Source of the DNA: Caldicellulosiruptor diazotrophicus | GTDB taxonomy: Bacteria > Bacillota > Thermoanaerobacteria > Caldicellulosiruptorales > Caldicellulosiruptoraceae | DNA: 64,000 nt | Reading direction: 5' to 3' | Assembly (NCBI RefSeq): GCF_017347585.1 | Contig: NZ_AP024480.1 | Span: 1,696,001-1,760,000 of the forward strand | Shown here: positions 42,098-62,763 of the stretch, in pieces | Layout of the letters: each line of letters opens with the position of its first letter | Numbering within the stretch: position 1 is the first letter of the stretch | Notes under the pieces: generated by a model | The model's database searches: none | The model's input: the letters and a program-made list of their open reading frames with translations, nothing else | Told to the model about the DNA's origin: nothing | Made by a program: the position numbers and the translations under genes

Positions 42098-42130
42098 ATT
42101 ATATTCCTTAAAAGGGTAAAATTATGTCAA
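42098..42130 (-). promoter_or_regulatory. spoIIG-type promoter with 21-base spacer (Spo0A-dependent type)
   Basis: TTGACA (42125-42130) and TATAAT (42098-42103) on the minus strand are perfect hexamers, but are 21 bases apart. In Bacillus the spoIIG promoter has a similarly long (22-base) spacer and needs Spo0A. A possible 0A-box (TGTCAAA, one mismatch to TGTCGAA) lies on the opposite strand over the -35. Confidence 0.6.
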
Positions 42131-42247
42131 AATATTTTCAAGTTGCTCCTAAGTAAAAATCAATTTTCTAACAATTTTTTGCAAAAAATAAAGTTTTAAT
42201 TGTTTTATAACCATCGAAACTGTACATTTATAAATTTTGAAAGCAAA

Positions 42248-56726: not shown

Positions 56727-57650
56727 TCAGACCTTTTCAGCAACTCTCAGTTTTGCGCTGTGACTTCTTTTGTTTTTCTCAATCTCTTCTTTAGAAGGGG
56801 TTATTGGCTTTTTTGTTATGATGTTAAGCTCTTTTTTCTTGCCACATATACAGACAGGAAGATCTTTCGGACAAATACAGTCAAGTGAGTGAAATTTGAA
56901 AAACTCTTTTACTATTCTATCTTCAAGAGAGTGAAAAGAAATTGCACATATCCTCCCACCAGATTTCAAAAATCTCAAACTCTTTTCAAGCGCGATCATT
57001 ATTTCCTCAAGTTCTCTGTTTACCTCTATTCGGATAGCCTGGAAAGTCTTTTGTGCAGGATGTGAACCATCTTTTGGCTTCGGTACCACAGAAGAAATCA
57101 AGCTACTCAATTCTGTTGTGGTTTCAATAGGCTTTTTATTCCTTCTTTCCACAATCGCTTTTGCAATCCTTCTTGCAAACCTCTCTTCACCATACTCTCT
57201 TATTATTCTCTCTAAATCTTCCTTAGAATAGAAATTGATAACATCATACGCGGTTAGTTTTGATGTTGTATCCATCCTCATATCTAAAAAAGCTTCTTTG
57301 CTGTACGAAAAACCTCTTTCTTGCTTGTCAAGTTGCAATGAAGAAACACCAAAGTCGAAGAGTATTCCATCTATCTTTTCAATTCCTAAAGCTTCCAGCA
57401 CCTCATCAACTTTTGAAAATGAAGAATGCACTATCTCTACATTCTTGTAAGCTTCTAATTTTCTTCTGCCAAGCTCAATAGCTTCCAAGTCCCTGTCAAT
57501 AGCAATAAGAAAACCTTTGTTAGAAATCCTTTCAAGTATTCTTTTTGAATGTCCACCAAGACCAAAAGTAGCATCAACATAAATTCCATCCGGATTTGTA
57601 ACAAGAAAAAACACCGACTCTTCAAGTAGCACCGGTATGTGTTCATACAT
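56727..57650 (-). CDS. rsmH: 16S rRNA (cytosine-1402 N4) methyltransferase
   Basis: 307 residues. HIPVLLEESVFFL, DATFGLGGHSKRIL (SAM motif), FDFGVSSLQLD, FQAIRIEVNRELEEI and HSLEDRIVKEFF are RsmH signatures. SD AAGGAG before the ATG. Second gene of the dcw cluster. Confidence 0.98.
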   Translation of the reverse strand: MYEHIPVLLEESVFFLVTNPDGIYVDATFGLGGHSKRILERISNKGFLIAIDRDLEAIELGRRKLEAYKNVEIVHSSFSKVDEVLEALGIEKIDGILFDFGVSSLQLDKQERGFSYSKEAFLDMRMDTTSKLTAYDVINFYSKEDLERIIREYGEERFARRIAKAIVERRNKKPIETTTELSSLISSVVPKPKDGSHPAQKTFQAIRIEVNRELEEIMIALEKSLRFLKSGGRICAISFHSLEDRIVKEFFKFHSLDCICPKDLPVCICGKKKELNIITKKPITPSKEEIEKNKRSHSAKLRVAEKV

Positions 57651-57677
57651 TAAACTTTCCCCTACTCCTTCTAAAAC

Positions 57678-58109
57678 TTATATACCCAGCTCCTCCATTT
57701 TTTGTGCTATTCTATCAACCGAAAGGTCCTCATTAGTCATTTCTTTGAGCCAGTTATCCTCGCTCCATATTTCAATTCTTGTCATAACACCAATTATAAA
57801 TACCTCTTTTTGAATACCTGCATATTCTCTTAGGTTCTGGGGAATGAGGACTCTCCCCTGCTTGTCAACCTCGCACTCACACGCCCCCGCAAAGAAAAAT
57901 CTCAAAAATGTTCGTGCTTCTTTGCTTGTAAGTGGAAGTTTTTTAAGCTTTTCCTCAAGCACAGACCACTCTTTCAAAGAATATCCAAAAAGGCAGTTAT
58001 CAAGTCCTTTTGTAAGGATAAATCTCTCACCAAGTTCTTCTCTGAATTTAGAAGGAAGTATTATTCTACCTTTATTGTCTACCACATGCTTGTATTCTCC
58101 TATTAACAT
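57678..58109 (-). CDS. mraZ: Transcriptional regulator MraZ
   Basis: 143 residues: two SpoVT/AbrB-like halves ([26 protein letters not shown] and [23 protein letters not shown]). It controls the dcw operon by binding short direct repeats. Three AAAGTGG boxes lie directly before its start. Confidence 0.97.
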
Positions 58110-58113
58110 TAAA

Positions 58114-58140
58114 CCACTTTACTCCACTTTGAACCACTTT
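58114..58140 (-). promoter_or_regulatory. Three MraZ-type operator boxes
   Basis: Exact AAAGTGG repeats (minus strand) at 58134-58140, 58124-58130 and 58114-58120, each 10 bases apart; the last ends four bases before the mraZ ATG. AAAGTG-type repeats at this period are the known MraZ operator pattern. Autoregulation is inferred. Confidence 0.8.
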
Positions 58141-58150
58141 ATAAAAATAT

Positions 58151-58180
58151 TCTATACCAATTTGAAAAATCCTTCAACAA
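58151..58180 (-). promoter_or_regulatory. Probable promoter of the dcw cluster
   Basis: TATAGA (58151-58156) on the minus strand with a weak -35 (TTGTTG, spacer 18, or TTGAAG, spacer 15). It lies just upstream of the MraZ boxes. The exact -35 cannot be decided by eye. Confidence 0.4.
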
Positions 58181-58190
58181 ATGAAAAAAA

Positions 58191-58220
58191 AAATAGGGCA
58201 GATTTTTATCTGCCCTATTT
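58191..58220 (-). terminator. Terminator of the Spo0E-like gene
   Basis: Perfect 12-base arms AAATAGGGCAGA (58191-58202) and TCTGCCCTATTT (58209-58220); a nine-T run follows on the minus strand. It separates the Spo0E-like gene from the mraZ promoter. Confidence 0.9.
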
Positions 58221-58291
58221 TTTATATCGTAAAAATTCTCATCTTTTGTGTTTTGCCTCCTATCAGGCTCTTTTTGACCAGGCAAACTTTT

Positions 58292-58471
58292 TTACACATT
58301 CCCTTCCTTTTTGACTAACTTTTTGAGCACCATTTCATTTCTCTCTTTGTAATAATCCAGAATCAGCTTGTCCAATTCTGTACTGACATGATATATTGAC
58401 TCATAATCAGCGTTGCTGTTAATCAGTTCATCCAACTTCTCTCTCAACTTCATTATCTTTTCTGTTATCAT
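58292..58471 (-). CDS. Spo0E-like aspartyl-phosphate phosphatase (small)
   Basis: A 59-residue protein of two helices. It starts MITEKIMKLREKLDELINSN and carries HVSTELDKLILDYYKE, the Spo0E-family core (S-x-E-LD-x-LI-x-x-Y). Such proteins dephosphorylate Spo0A~P or similar receivers and slow sporulation. The ATG at 58471 has GGTGGG upstream. It has a consensus promoter (58503-58531) and its own terminator, so it is a single-gene transcript between lgt and mraZ. Identification is by motif only. Confidence 0.85.
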   Translation of the reverse strand: MITEKIMKLREKLDELINSNADYESIYHVSTELDKLILDYYKERNEMVLKKLVKKEGNV

Positions 58472-58502
58472 ATTCCCACCATCTTACAAAGATTGTATTT
58501 TA

Positions 58503-58531
58503 ATTATAAACCCAAACGCGTATTTTGTCAA
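58503..58531 (-). promoter_or_regulatory. Consensus promoter of the Spo0E-like gene
   Basis: TTGACA (58526-58531), 17-base spacer, TATAAT (58503-58508) on the minus strand, 32 bases before the start codon. Confidence 0.85.
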
Positions 58532-58568
58532 CAAAAATACTCTAAAAATACATTGTGCTGTTTTTTTG

Positions 58569-59372
58569 CTATATTTTGTCGAAAAATGACCTTTTGTTCT
58601 TTAACACAATTGTACTTCCTACAACAATGCACAAAGCTGCAACAATCTGGGATACTCTAAAATTCCCTATCATTAAACTGTCTGTTCTCAACCCCTCGAT
58701 GAAAAACCTTCCGGTAGAATAAAATATTAAATAAAATCCTAACATATCCCCTTCTTTCTTTTTATACTTTCTGAGAAATAATAAAAGCAAGAAGACAAAA
58801 AAGTCCCATAAAGACTCATACAAAAATGTTGGATGAACATCTATTCTTCTCCCAACTTCATTGCTATAAATCTGCATACGCCATGGAAGATTTGTCTCAT
58901 AGCCGTAAGCTTCCCTGTTTGCAAAGTTACCCCATCTTCCTATTGCCTGCCCTAATATCAGACCGTGAACACCCACATCACATATTTTGAAAAAATTTAT
59001 TTTTTTTATCTTGCAATAAATGTATGTGCTCAAAAGCGCACCTATCAAAGCTCCATATATCGCAATTCCACCCTGGCGAATGGCAAAAATGCTTAGAATA
59101 TTGTCCTTGAACTCTTTAAAATTAAAAATCACATAATAAGCCCTTGCAAAGATTATTGCAACAGGTAGTGCAATTATTGCAATGTCAAGCAAAACCTCTG
59201 GGTTTACTTCTTCTTTTTTAGCAAAATATGTGCTTGCAAGAAAACCACATAAAAAACCAATTGCAATTATAATCCCGTACCATCTGACCTCAAGTCCAAA
59301 AATCTTAAATGCAACTGGACTAAAATTAAATCTCAAACCAAGCCCTGGAAAAACAATACTATCATCTATCAT
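58569..59372 (-). CDS. lgt: Phosphatidylglycerol-prolipoprotein diacylglyceryl transferase
   Basis: 267 residues, seven membrane helices. VRWYGIIIAIGFLCG, the Lgt signature GRWGNFANREAYG (with the conserved Arg) and HPTFLYESLWDF are present. It attaches diacylglycerol to lipoprotein cysteines. The ATG at 59372 begins MIDDSIVFPGLG. Confidence 0.97.
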   Translation of the reverse strand: MIDDSIVFPGLGLRFNFSPVAFKIFGLEVRWYGIIIAIGFLCGFLASTYFAKKEEVNPEVLLDIAIIALPVAIIFARAYYVIFNFKEFKDNILSIFAIRQGGIAIYGALIGALLSTYIYCKIKKINFFKICDVGVHGLILGQAIGRWGNFANREAYGYETNLPWRMQIYSNEVGRRIDVHPTFLYESLWDFFVFLLLLFLRKYKKKEGDMLGFYLIFYSTGRFFIEGLRTDSLMIGNFRVSQIVAALCIVVGSTIVLKNKRSFFDKI

Positions 59373-59401
59373 TTTCCTTTGCTCCAAACTTTATATTTGT
59401 C

Positions 59402-60682
59402 TTAATTTGTTGGCCAAACAATTGATATACAGCTTGTACTTTCATCAAAAAATTCTTTGAGCCTTTTTTCGCACATTTCAAATGATACAGAAGATATTTG
59501 TTTAACATATTCAAATATATTTACTCCTTTGAAATAGTTGTATATAAACTCAACAGAGAGTTTTTCAGGATTATCAAACTTTCTCAAGTGAGTCCCCAAA
59601 ACAACCTTTTTTGCTCTCTCAAACTCTTCTCTGTCAATTCCTTTTTTCTTGACATCCTCAATGTGCTCAATTATTCTTCTGTAAACCTCTTCAGGGTCTT
59701 TGCTCTCTCCACCAATCATAAAGAATGAATATTCAGGTTCACAGTTGTACTCAAACCCAAAGTTCTGGTTGATAAGTCCTTCTTTATAAAGCTTTTCATA
59801 AAAATCTGTGGATTTTCCAAACAGCATTTCAGCCATTATCTGTGTTTGTATATCCTTCATTATCATCTCATATGGCGGAAGGTCATTTTGATTGTCTTTA
59901 AAGCCTATATAGAAGATTGGCACTGCCACTGAAAGCCTTGCCTCTATCTTTTTTTGATTTAATTTTTCAGGCTCATCAGGATAAATCCTTTCTATCAGGC
60001 TTTGATATTCTTTTGTCTTTTCCATCCTTTCAATTGTATCAAAAACTTTTTTAGGGTCCACATCACCGCATACAACAATTATCATATTGCTTGGATGATA
60101 GAATGTATTATAACACAAATACAAATCCTCTTTTGTAATTTTTTGAATACTCTCTAATGTTCCTGCAATGTCAATTTTCACAGGATTGTTTACATAAAGT
60201 GCATTCAAGAGATTAAAATAAACCCTCCAGTTTGGATTGTCCTGGTACATTCTTATCTCCTGTCCAATTATCCCTTTTTCTTTCTCGACATTTTGATCAG
60301 TAAAATACGGATTTTGAACAAAATCTAAGAGAATCTCAAAATTTTCATAAAAGTTTTGAGTGGATATAAAATAGTAGACTGTTTCTTTGAAGGAAGTAAA
60401 TGCATTTGCCATTGCACCAAATTTTGCAAATCTGTCAAACACATTTCCTTCTTCTTCCTCAAACAATTTGTGTTCCAAAAAATGTGCAATGCCATCTGGA
60501 ACCTCAACAACCTCTTTTGTTTTTGGATGAACAAATTTACTATCAACAGAACCGTATTTTGTTGCAAAACCTGCAAATGCCTTGCTGAAGTTTTTCTTTT
60601 TTATGACAAAAGCTTTTAGTCCATTTGAATATGAATTTATATAAATCTCTTCATTGAGAGCATCATCATAAATCCTTTCCAT
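59402..60682 (-). CDS. M16 family zinc peptidase, YmfH-like
   Basis: 426 residues. The inverted zinc motif HFLEH (residues about 66-70) with KLFEEEEGNVFDRFAKFGAMANAFTSF marks an active M16 enzyme; the downstream Glu of the second metal site lies in the EKEKGIIGQEIRMYQDNP stretch. In Bacillus ymfF-ymfH are adjacent; here the inactive partner precedes it with a 17-base overlap. Substrate unknown. Start ATG 60682 after GAGGTG. Confidence 0.93.
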   Translation of the reverse strand: MERIYDDALNEEIYINSYSNGLKAFVIKKKNFSKAFAGFATKYGSVDSKFVHPKTKEVVEVPDGIAHFLEHKLFEEEEGNVFDRFAKFGAMANAFTSFKETVYYFISTQNFYENFEILLDFVQNPYFTDQNVEKEKGIIGQEIRMYQDNPNWRVYFNLLNALYVNNPVKIDIAGTLESIQKITKEDLYLCYNTFYHPSNMIIVVCGDVDPKKVFDTIERMEKTKEYQSLIERIYPDEPEKLNQKKIEARLSVAVPIFYIGFKDNQNDLPPYEMIMKDIQTQIMAEMLFGKSTDFYEKLYKEGLINQNFGFEYNCEPEYSFFMIGGESKDPEEVYRRIIEHIEDVKKKGIDREEFERAKKVVLGTHLRKFDNPEKLSVEFIYNYFKGVNIFEYVKQISSVSFEMCEKRLKEFFDESTSCISIVWPTN

Positions 60683-61940
60683 CTTTAGCAACACCTCTGT
60701 TTTTCAAAAAATATACAGTATCAAGCTCAAACCTGTTTGCTATCTTTTTTATATCCTCTATATTCACATTTTTGAGGTTTTCAAAAACTTCCTTGGGTTC
60801 TATTATTTGTCCAACTAATGCCTGATTTAAATAAAAACTCAGAAGATCCCTTGGACTGTCATATATAGCCATCAGAGCTGTTTTATAATAGTTTATTGCA
60901 CTTTCATATTCGATATCATCAATCCTCCCATTTTTGATATCCTCTATCTGCTGCAAAATCATATTTAAAGCCTTTTCATAGTTTTCAATTTCAATTCCAG
61001 AGCTAATAATCATTACAGATTTGAACCTGTCAATCCTTGAAAATACGTAGTAGCACAAAGAAGCTTTTTCGCGAACATTTTCAAAAAGTTTTGATTTTGG
61101 AGATGCTCCTAGAATTCCGTTGAGCATCAAAAGTTTGTAATAATCCTCAGATGTCACATCCACATTTGTTCTTATCCCAAGGGCAATTTTGCCTTGATTT
61201 ACTTCCATCTCTTCTGTTACATATCTTGTGTTTTCAAATGGAATGTCTACAAAAAAATCATTGTGTATACTCTCTCTTTTTTCCTCTCCAAAAATCTCTA
61301 ATGCTTTTGAAGTTGCCCATTCTTCATCATAGTCACCATAGACAAACACGTACATAGGCTTTTTGGTAATAACCTCTTGGTATTGTGAAAAGAGCTTTTC
61401 TTTTGTGATGGTTTGCAAGTCATCAACATTTCCTTTTTCATAAAGAGCATAATTTTGCCCCTCAAACATAATCTCTATACATCTGTCAATTGCATATTGA
61501 ACCTTGTCGTTTATCCTGCTTTCAATCTCCTGTTTTAGATTGTTCTTCTCTTGCAATATAGCTTCTTCTTCAAATCCACCGCCATATTTTATCGGACCAT
61601 ATATGATGTCATACAAAAACTGTAGCGCTTTTGTATAAAGGTTTTCTCCTGCAAATCTATCATTTAAAAAGCTTATTGCAAATGAAATTGCCTGCAGGTC
61701 ACCCTTTTTATCCACATCAATGCTCAAAGATGCACCATACATATTGTCCAAAAATCTATTTATTTCTTTCATATCCTTGTACTTATTGTTCCCTCTTATT
61801 AAAACCATTGGAAATAGAGCATTTAAAGTATTTTTTTCTCTTTCAAGCCTATCTATAAAGGTAACTGAAATCCTGTTTATCTTGAACCTGTCATCACAAA
61901 ACGCCATATAAAAATTGTTGTTTTTCTCTTTTTTTTGCAT
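60666..61940 (-). CDS. M16 family protein without zinc motif, YmfF-like
   Basis: 424 residues with the M16 fold (FGEEKRE... region, KENVREKASLCYYVFSRIDRFKSVMIISSGIE) but no HxxEH motif; at the equivalent place is MVLIRGNNKYKDMKEINRFLDNMYGASLS. Probably the structural partner that forms a heterodimer with the YmfH-like peptidase. ATG at 61940 with GAGGAGATGG upstream. Confidence 0.9.
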   Translation of the reverse strand: MQKKEKNNNFYMAFCDDRFKINRISVTFIDRLEREKNTLNALFPMVLIRGNNKYKDMKEINRFLDNMYGASLSIDVDKKGDLQAISFAISFLNDRFAGENLYTKALQFLYDIIYGPIKYGGGFEEEAILQEKNNLKQEIESRINDKVQYAIDRCIEIMFEGQNYALYEKGNVDDLQTITKEKLFSQYQEVITKKPMYVFVYGDYDEEWATSKALEIFGEEKRESIHNDFFVDIPFENTRYVTEEMEVNQGKIALGIRTNVDVTSEDYYKLLMLNGILGASPKSKLFENVREKASLCYYVFSRIDRFKSVMIISSGIEIENYEKALNMILQQIEDIKNGRIDDIEYESAINYYKTALMAIYDSPRDLLSFYLNQALVGQIIEPKEVFENLKNVNIEDIKKIANRFELDTVYFLKNRGVAKDGKDL

Positions 61941-62033: not shown

Positions 62034-62435
62034 TCATAGCTCAGAAATTATTATCTCTTCAAACTTTAAAACCAACTTCCTAAATAGCTCTACATACTCA
62101 AGTTTAATGTTTTGGTAAATCTCATAAGCCATTTTTTGGTCATATAAGTGAGAAGTCATATTTCTATCTGAAAGCATTTTAAGCCATTTGTCACCGTCTT
62201 CTATAATGCCATTTTGATATGCATACTTTATAACGGTCCGAGGATTGTTAATCTCCAAACCAGTATACTTCAAATATTCCCTCATGAGCTTCCATGAAAG
62301 TTCAAAGACAAATTCAAATCTCTGGATTGCCCCGTCCATAATAATATCCTTGTCCGGCTGTATACTTATACCTTCTTCTAATCTTTTTAAAGCAGTCTTA
62401 AAATCTTCATACTTCTCTACTATTCTCTCTTTCAT
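62034..62435 (-). CDS. hepT: HEPN-domain toxin HepT (HI0074 family)
   Basis: 133 residues, all-helical HEPN fold. The RNase motif R-NMTS-H-L-Y (RX4HXY) is in LSDRNMTSHLYDQKMAY, near residue 95; FELSWKLMREYLKYTG and NPRTVIKYAYQNGII are typical of the HI0074 type. In studied pairs the tyrosine of this motif is adenylylated by MntA to block toxicity. Overlaps the mntA end by 29 bases. Confidence 0.92.
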   Translation of the reverse strand: MKERIVEKYEDFKTALKRLEEGISIQPDKDIIMDGAIQRFEFVFELSWKLMREYLKYTGLEINNPRTVIKYAYQNGIIEDGDKWLKMLSDRNMTSHLYDQKMAYEIYQNIKLEYVELFRKLVLKFEEIIISEL

Positions 62436-62742
62436 ATATAATTACTCCTTCTTTTATGATACTTTCTTTGAGATTTTCTTTTGTAATGCTATCGAACGCA
62501 ACAACATCAAACAGCAATATTGTATTAACTTCTTCTAATTCATCCTGGATTTTATAAATTGGATTTTCACTCTCCTCTTCAAGCCAAATACATATATCTA
62601 CATCAGAACCTCTTCTATAGTCTCCTCTTGCCCTCGAACCAAAGATACAAGCTTTTCTCACTTGCTTGTATTTCTTAAAAATTTCGATAATCTTATTTAA
62701 GATTTCTTCCTCTATTCCAAACCTTTTGGTTTCCACCTTCAT
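62407..62742 (-). CDS. mntA: MntA-type nucleotidyltransferase antitoxin (HI0073 family)
   Basis: About 111 residues. The minimal nucleotidyltransferase motif is GS-RARGDYRRGS-DVD (GSX10DXD), with a third acidic residue in LLFDVVAFD. It is the antitoxin that modifies HepT. ATG at 62742 has AAGGTGAG before it. Confidence 0.93.
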   Translation of the reverse strand: MKVETKRFGIEEEILNKIIEIFKKYKQVRKACIFGSRARGDYRRGSDVDICIWLEEESENPIYKIQDELEEVNTILLFDVVAFDSITKENLKESIIKEGVIIYERENSREV

Positions 62743-62763
62743 TCTCACCTTTTCAAAAAATTT

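Follow-up and report, generated by a model that had tools for sequence, protein, structure and literature searches.

Genes at the Locus

The window, by which we mean the whole 64-kb stretch of DNA that was analysed, contains a short reading frame on the minus strand (58292–58471) that starts with ATG, encodes 59 residues and carries the signature S30-T-E-L-D34. It is located between lgt on its upstream side (58569–59387, minus strand; PF01790 at 260.8 bits, TIGR00544 above cut-off) and mraZ, the first gene of the dcw cluster, on its downstream side (57678–58109, minus strand; PF02381, TIGR00242 above cut-off). Just upstream of lgt, NCBIfam places YfmH and YfmF, EF-P 5-aminopentanol modification-associated proteins, at 59402–61940 (minus strand). 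A HepT/MntA-type nucleotidyltransferase pair follows at 62034–62748 (minus strand), for which PF08780, Polbeta and TIGR01987 are above cut-off while the HepT and MntA equivalogs of NCBIfam are below it.

Family Membership and Conservation of the Spo0E-Like Protein

The first-pass annotation described the frame as a 59-residue Spo0E-like gene with an S-TELDKLILDYY core and proposed a search with the family model. The core is present as quoted, and the label is supported by a PF09388 match that scores 30.8 bits, the cut-off being 23, and in which residues 2–42 cover the entire 42-position Pfam profile. This is the sole PF09388 match in the full genome. The SxxxD motif of Spo0E proteins is stated in PMC11115286. 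Both S30 and D34 are unchanged throughout an alignment of 13 sequences, of which G012, a genome of the sister genus, contributes 2 and the genus the other 11; L010 was omitted from this alignment as its protein is identical to that of L009. Spo0A is also encoded, with one Spo0A_C match per genome in 13/13 genomes of the family.

The PF09388 search found the gene in all 13 family genomes. It is single-copy in the 12 genus members, and G012 has a second, divergent copy besides the first. The reading frame is intact in 12/12 genus members, among which 12, 7 and 45 sites are variable at codon positions 1, 2 and 3, respectively (59 sites each). The excess at third positions indicates purifying selection on the coding sequence. 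No dN/dS ratio is given, since the NG86 dS was saturated in four out of five pairs. NCBIfam gave no match for the 59-residue frame, so an annotation based on NCBIfam only would leave the gene without a name. That missing match is the one point in favour of a chance ORF that is no gene, which is next to inconceivable: the Pfam score is above cut-off, the frame stays open with mostly third-position changes in 12/12 species, and an orthologue sits at the equivalent place in the sister genus (G012). Conservation thus rules out a chance ORF, and the frame at 58292–58471 is a gene and an ordinary member of the known Spo0E family.

A single-sequence AlphaFold2 model predicts two helices (H2–17 and H23–57) joined by a loop, with a pLDDT of 94.9. 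A sequence-profile search of the PDB with the protein returned 2bzb, which we take to be a Spo0E-type protein, at a weak E of 0.21. Foldseek found no match to the model in the PDB at E ≤ 0.001, and a Spo0E protein is absent among the matches listed. Neither of the two structure searches singles out Spo0E or confirms the predicted fold. A scan of the protein against a genome contig collection, from which close records may be excluded, returned no relative.

The likeness to Spo0E, YnzD and YisI of Bacillus (PF09388) lies in the short protein, the Pfam domain, the SxxxD motif, the two predicted helices and the presence of Spo0A in the genome. The three proteins are described for B. subtilis in the part of PMC3533761 at hand, whereas one copy is found here, and the gene here differs from the Bacillus family in being located between lgt and mraZ. 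The 53-residue Spo0E of C. difficile is likewise a short clostridial form with SxxxD, according to the text available from PMC11115286. The same text reports that it co-purifies with Spo0A and has a predicted contact with the receiver domain, and that it represses sporulation and interacts with both Spo0A and RstA.

Gene Order in Clostridia

The order lgt, spo0E, mraZ was found by tblastn in 12/12 genus members and in G012. For a wider comparison, 80 clostridial mraZ loci were used, the best 80 of 547 relatives by MraZ similarity. Among them, lgt is upstream of mraZ in 60 (tblastn), and some of the other loci end at contig edges. A same-strand Spo0E-like ORF is present between the two genes in 24 of these 60 loci, at a distance to mraZ of 160–409 bases in 16 cases and 1462–1925 bases in the other eight. 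Eight of the 24 ORFs were submitted to Pfam and all eight scored above cut-off. As a side observation, YfmH has a match on the upstream side of mraZ in 33 of these best 80 loci. A class-wide search gave a Spo0E-like match in 34/37 genomes; in 17 Spo0E-like loci outside the family (L124–L140), tblastn found neither lgt nor mraZ within the 1.5-kb flanks. Our literature search found no paper that joins Spo0E with mraZ. Judged by gene order, the lgt–mraZ position of spo0E is old in Clostridia, but the perfect 0A box described below is not common to it.

The Transcription Unit

The gene had been credited with its own promoter and terminator, and both are present and conserved in the genus. The promoter is a consensus sigma-A promoter at 58503–58531 (minus strand), with TTGACA at 58526–58531, TATAAT at 58503–58508 and a spacing of 17 bp, matching the consensus at 12/12 positions. 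The hexamers and the spacing are identical in 12/12 genus members and are also readable in G012. Such promoters are rare by chance: the 64-kb window contains four perfect ones (spacing 16–18), whereas 20 first-order Markov sequences had 0.15 on average. The distance between the −10 hexamer and the ATG is 31 bases. A putative ribosome-binding site, GGTGGG, was read from the sequence at 58475–58480 (minus strand) and is identical in 12/12 genus members.

Downstream, an intrinsic terminator with a 16-pair stem occupies 58184–58223 (minus strand). Its stem-loop spans 58188–58223 and its T run, at 58184–58193, has ten residues and not nine as initially counted. By eye, the alignment retains the stem core in 12/12 species while the loop varies. 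A terminator scan of the gap between lgt and spo0E gave no terminator-like site, so read-through from lgt is possible. Rfam, run over 57600–58800, found no RNA element, no family reaching its gathering score.

A sigma-H-like promoter, GAAGGATTTTT...TATAGAAT, precedes mraZ at 58149–58175 (minus strand) and is present in 12/12 genus genomes. It is followed, just upstream of mraZ, by three AAGTGG repeats 10 bp apart (58114–58142, minus strand), which are conserved in the genus alignment and are presumably MraZ boxes. Co-transcription of spo0E and mraZ was rejected as the terminator and this separate promoter stand between the two genes; judged by sequence, spo0E and the wall cluster probably have separate transcripts. 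The description of the gene as lying inside the dcw neighbourhood is therefore correct as far as its place between lgt and mraZ goes, but it would be a separate unit beside the dcw cluster. The idea that it ties Spo0A dephosphorylation to that cluster fared similarly: it has the conserved neighbourhood in its favour (12/12 genus members, G012 and the 24 of 60 clostridial loci), but a common transcript is unlikely.

The Sigma-H-Like Promoter of mraZ

The promoter of mraZ has the same form as that of spoIIA in the genus, GAAGG(A/G)TTTTT...ATAGAAT. The sigma-H label rests on the consensus as we remember it and on this match to the spoIIA promoter. A search with GAAGGATTTT-N10-ATAGAAT, one mismatch being allowed, gave 50 matches in the 12 genomes against one for the reversed control. 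These comprise mraZ (12/12), spoIIA (12/12), a third site of identical sequence (12/12), a fourth, similar site in eight genomes and six others; beyond the loci that were read, the sites were sorted by sequence alone. A gene for sigma-H is above cut-off in 13/13 family genomes, and the mraZ promoter of G012 has the form seen in the genus.

The same arrangement was found more widely. In a scan of the 300 bp upstream of mraZ at 76 other clostridial loci, AGGAWWW-14-GAAT was found on the strand of the gene in 31 and on the other strand in none (0/76); these 31 matches are not independent, several loci being closely related. The 76 loci are those of the best 80 (L152–L231) that remain when four with fewer than 300 bases upstream are left out. 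When the gap was varied from 8 to 20, a gap of 14 gave the 31 matches, a gap of 18 gave one and the rest none, and no gap gave any on the other strand.

The occurrence of this promoter in many Clostridia suggests that the entire division cluster may answer the same transition-state network. A better form of the idea of a tie between spo0E and the wall cluster is one that would run via a shared Spo0A/sigma-H network. In the portion of PMC10693644 available, wall synthases encoded in the C. difficile dcw cluster are reported to serve sporulation, which fits with this. A literature search found no paper treating SigH, dcw, Clostridia, Spo0A and promoter together.

The third site precedes what we take to be an HU-like gene in the loci that were read (L088 and L095; six loci matched). 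At G000:C1:1861107-1861133 (L095), the promoter and the HU-like gene are followed by ORFs presumed to be RqcP-, YabP- and YabQ-like. The fourth site precedes a gene presumed to be sugar-ABC-transporter-like (L103, L107 and L108).

The 0A-Box Motif Upstream of spo0E

The range initially marked for the gene, 58191–58531, ends at the −35 hexamer and misses a perfect 0A-box motif, TTTTGTCGAAAAA, at 58574–58586 (plus strand; core TGTCGAA at 58577–58583), which extends over the last codons and the stop of lgt. The centre of the core precedes the inferred transcription start by about 84 bp, and the core is 106–112 bp upstream of the spo0E start codon. In the part of PMC3485338 available, TGTCGAA is given as the core recognised by Spo0A; C. 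difficile Spo0A is reported there to bind promoters with this core, and the boxes are 67–82 bp upstream of four start codons. A second motif, TGTCAAC, overlaps the −35 hexamer (58526–58532, plus strand); its core centre and that of the first motif are 51 bp apart. It may be a weak 0A-like site, with two mismatches to TTTTGTCGAA, and its conservation could be explained by the −35 hexamer alone.

The perfect motif, ATTTTGTCGAAA, is found at spo0E in 12/12 genus genomes. Across these genomes it has 48 matches against 101 for the reversed control, and hence is not enriched; the genome-wide count carries no meaning and function can be argued only from orthologous positions. The neighbours of the 48 sites are spo0E (12/12), a spoIIAA-like gene (11/12), a Band_7/SPFH gene (8/12), a zinc-ribbon TcaA/YvbJ-like gene (4/12) and 13 others. 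They were assigned from loci by tblastn for 41 sites and by coordinate for seven, and one locus each of the SPFH and zinc-ribbon kinds was examined with Pfam. An example of the Band_7/SPFH gene downstream of the motif is found at G000:C1:2391712 (L071). The spoIIAA-like gene is below the NCBIfam cut-off and was so called because the ORFs that come next (L106) are, as we take them, anti-sigma-factor-like and then sigma-factor-like. spoIIA shares the motif with spo0E, but its promoter is sigma-H-like and that of spo0E is consensus sigma-A.

Outside the genus the motif fades. In G012 the box is degenerate, a one-mismatch motif being retained at the lgt stop, and a second near-match was seen by eye 10 bp from the first. 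A perfect TGTCGAA was found within 200 bp of 0/24 Spo0E-like genes at the other clostridial lgt–mraZ loci (shuffle mean 0.31), which, on this sequence comparison, would count against an old feedback.

Apparent Constraint on the DNA

In the control region from the 0A box to the start codon (58472–58584, minus strand; 113 bp), all of 11 species agree at 104 of 113 columns. The mean pairwise identity of this region is 96.3%, compared with 83.4% for the spo0E coding sequence and 81.3% for lgt. The last five codons of lgt, TTC GAC AAA ATA TAG (FDKI*), are nucleotide-identical in 11/11 species with an intact lgt frame. Elsewhere in lgt, the amino acid is invariant at 155 degenerate codon columns, of which only 34 are nucleotide-invariant, so the constraint on the five codons looks to be on the DNA and not on the protein. 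The identity and codon comparisons omit L009 (G010), in which a shift of the lgt frame shortly before the 3′ end of the gene is either an assembly error or a real change.

Aligned identities of 113 bp upstream were also obtained for hup (99.5%, 6 loci), spoIIAA (91.7%, 12 loci) and mraZ (87.2%, 12 loci). From the value for hup, strong conservation is common to at least one other promoter and is not special to spo0E.

Proposed Control by Spo0A and Its Sign

From the conserved motif, Spo0A, the master regulator of sporulation, and the protein that probably switches it off may control each other. We consider it fairly probable that the protein is a Spo0A~P phosphatase under direct control of Spo0A, the control probably being repression; phosphatase activity, Spo0A binding and the direction of the feedback are all deduced from sequence. 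Direct dephosphorylation of Spo0A~P by Spo0E in B. subtilis is reported in the available sections of PMC3269414 and PMC4213463. In the proposed mechanism, the small two-helix protein would bind the receiver domain of the single Spo0A and remove the phosphate. Its gene would be expressed as a short separate message from the consensus sigma-A promoter. Spo0A~P would occupy the box centred near −84, perhaps together with the weak site over the −35 hexamer, and alter transcription. With repression, Spo0A~P at a high level would silence the gene for the enzyme that dephosphorylates it, so that the cell would be held in the Spo0A-on state.

Two features favour repression over activation: the promoter is at consensus as it stands, and the second site lies over the −35 hexamer. 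Nevertheless, activation is also allowed by the place of the main box, which precedes the promoter just as the box at spoIIA does. If Spo0A~P activated spo0E, a direct negative feedback would replace the indirect loop of Bacillus via AbrB; we regard this as rather unlikely. A negative feedback loop of spo0A, abrB and spo0E in B. subtilis is described in the accessible text of PMC3269414; there the loop includes AbrB, whereas here a perfect 0A-box motif is found upstream of spo0E itself. Up-regulation of spoIIG by Spo0A~P in B. subtilis, reported in the part of PMC4213463 available, also speaks for activation, as the spoIIG loci of the family resemble spo0E in having TTGACA over the −35 in 8/11 cases (CTGACA in two, GTGACA in G012). 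The spacing of the two promoters differs, being 21 bp from the −35 hexamer to TATAAT in 11/11 spoIIG loci and 17 bp at spo0E. A promoter with 12/12 consensus matches and 17-bp spacing should need no activator, and this normal spacing moderately favours repression. The spoIIGA promoter of the window is located at 42098–42132 (minus strand), and its −35 region resembles a 0A-like motif. In B. subtilis, spoIIG has a wide-spaced promoter that needs Spo0A.

The protein might also be a phosphatase without any feedback from Spo0A, expressed from a strong constitutive promoter, the box being due to chance or kept for another reason such as the lgt C-terminus or another regulator. The excess of control matches over motif matches, the lack of a perfect core at the distant copies and the 51 bp between the box and the −35 site are in line with this reading. 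It does not easily explain why the last five lgt codons are nucleotide-identical or why the identical motif is found at spoIIA, and we judge it unlikely.

A Possible Role Outside Sporulation

PMC3533761 counts 30 genomes that keep Spo0A in bacteria not known as spore-formers, Caldicellulosiruptor being among those named. If the genus studied here is Caldicellulosiruptor, as we take it to be, its one Spo0A, paired with one phosphatase gene that carries the conserved 0A-box motif, would be a simple place to test for a role of Spo0A independent of spores. The parts worth an experiment are this motif and the sigma-H-like mraZ promoter.

Two genomes of the genus bear on the question. In G007 no spoIIGA match was obtained, and in G008 the gene is broken, yet spo0A, spo0E, the region upstream of spo0E and the 0A box are all intact in both, which points to a use of this pair beyond spore formation. 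The retention of spo0E and its upstream region in these two genomes would also be accounted for by a Spo0E-like adaptor that acts mainly with a protein other than Spo0A, such as an RRNPP regulator, and controls motility or surface functions. The C. difficile protein, according to PMC11115286, has RstA as a further binding partner and represses both motility and toxin. An adaptor of this kind is quite improbable here; Spo0A is retained in G007 and G008, and a non-sporulation role of Spo0A explains the observations equally well.

Returning to Spo0A as the partner, we put forward, as a speculation that may well prove wrong, that Spo0A and its sole Spo0E-type phosphatase form a direct double-negative switch in a lineage thought to be non-sporulating. 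spo0E would be retained beside a division cluster that is itself read, in many Clostridia, by the transition-state factor sigma-H, and a single locus would thereby link the decision taken by Spo0A with the making of septum and wall. In G007 and G008, which lack an intact spoIIGA, the switch would persist and serve a purpose other than spores. The 0A site that departs from the genus pattern in G007 is that of spoIIA, where TTTGACAAAATAT is found in place of ATTTTGTCGAAA.
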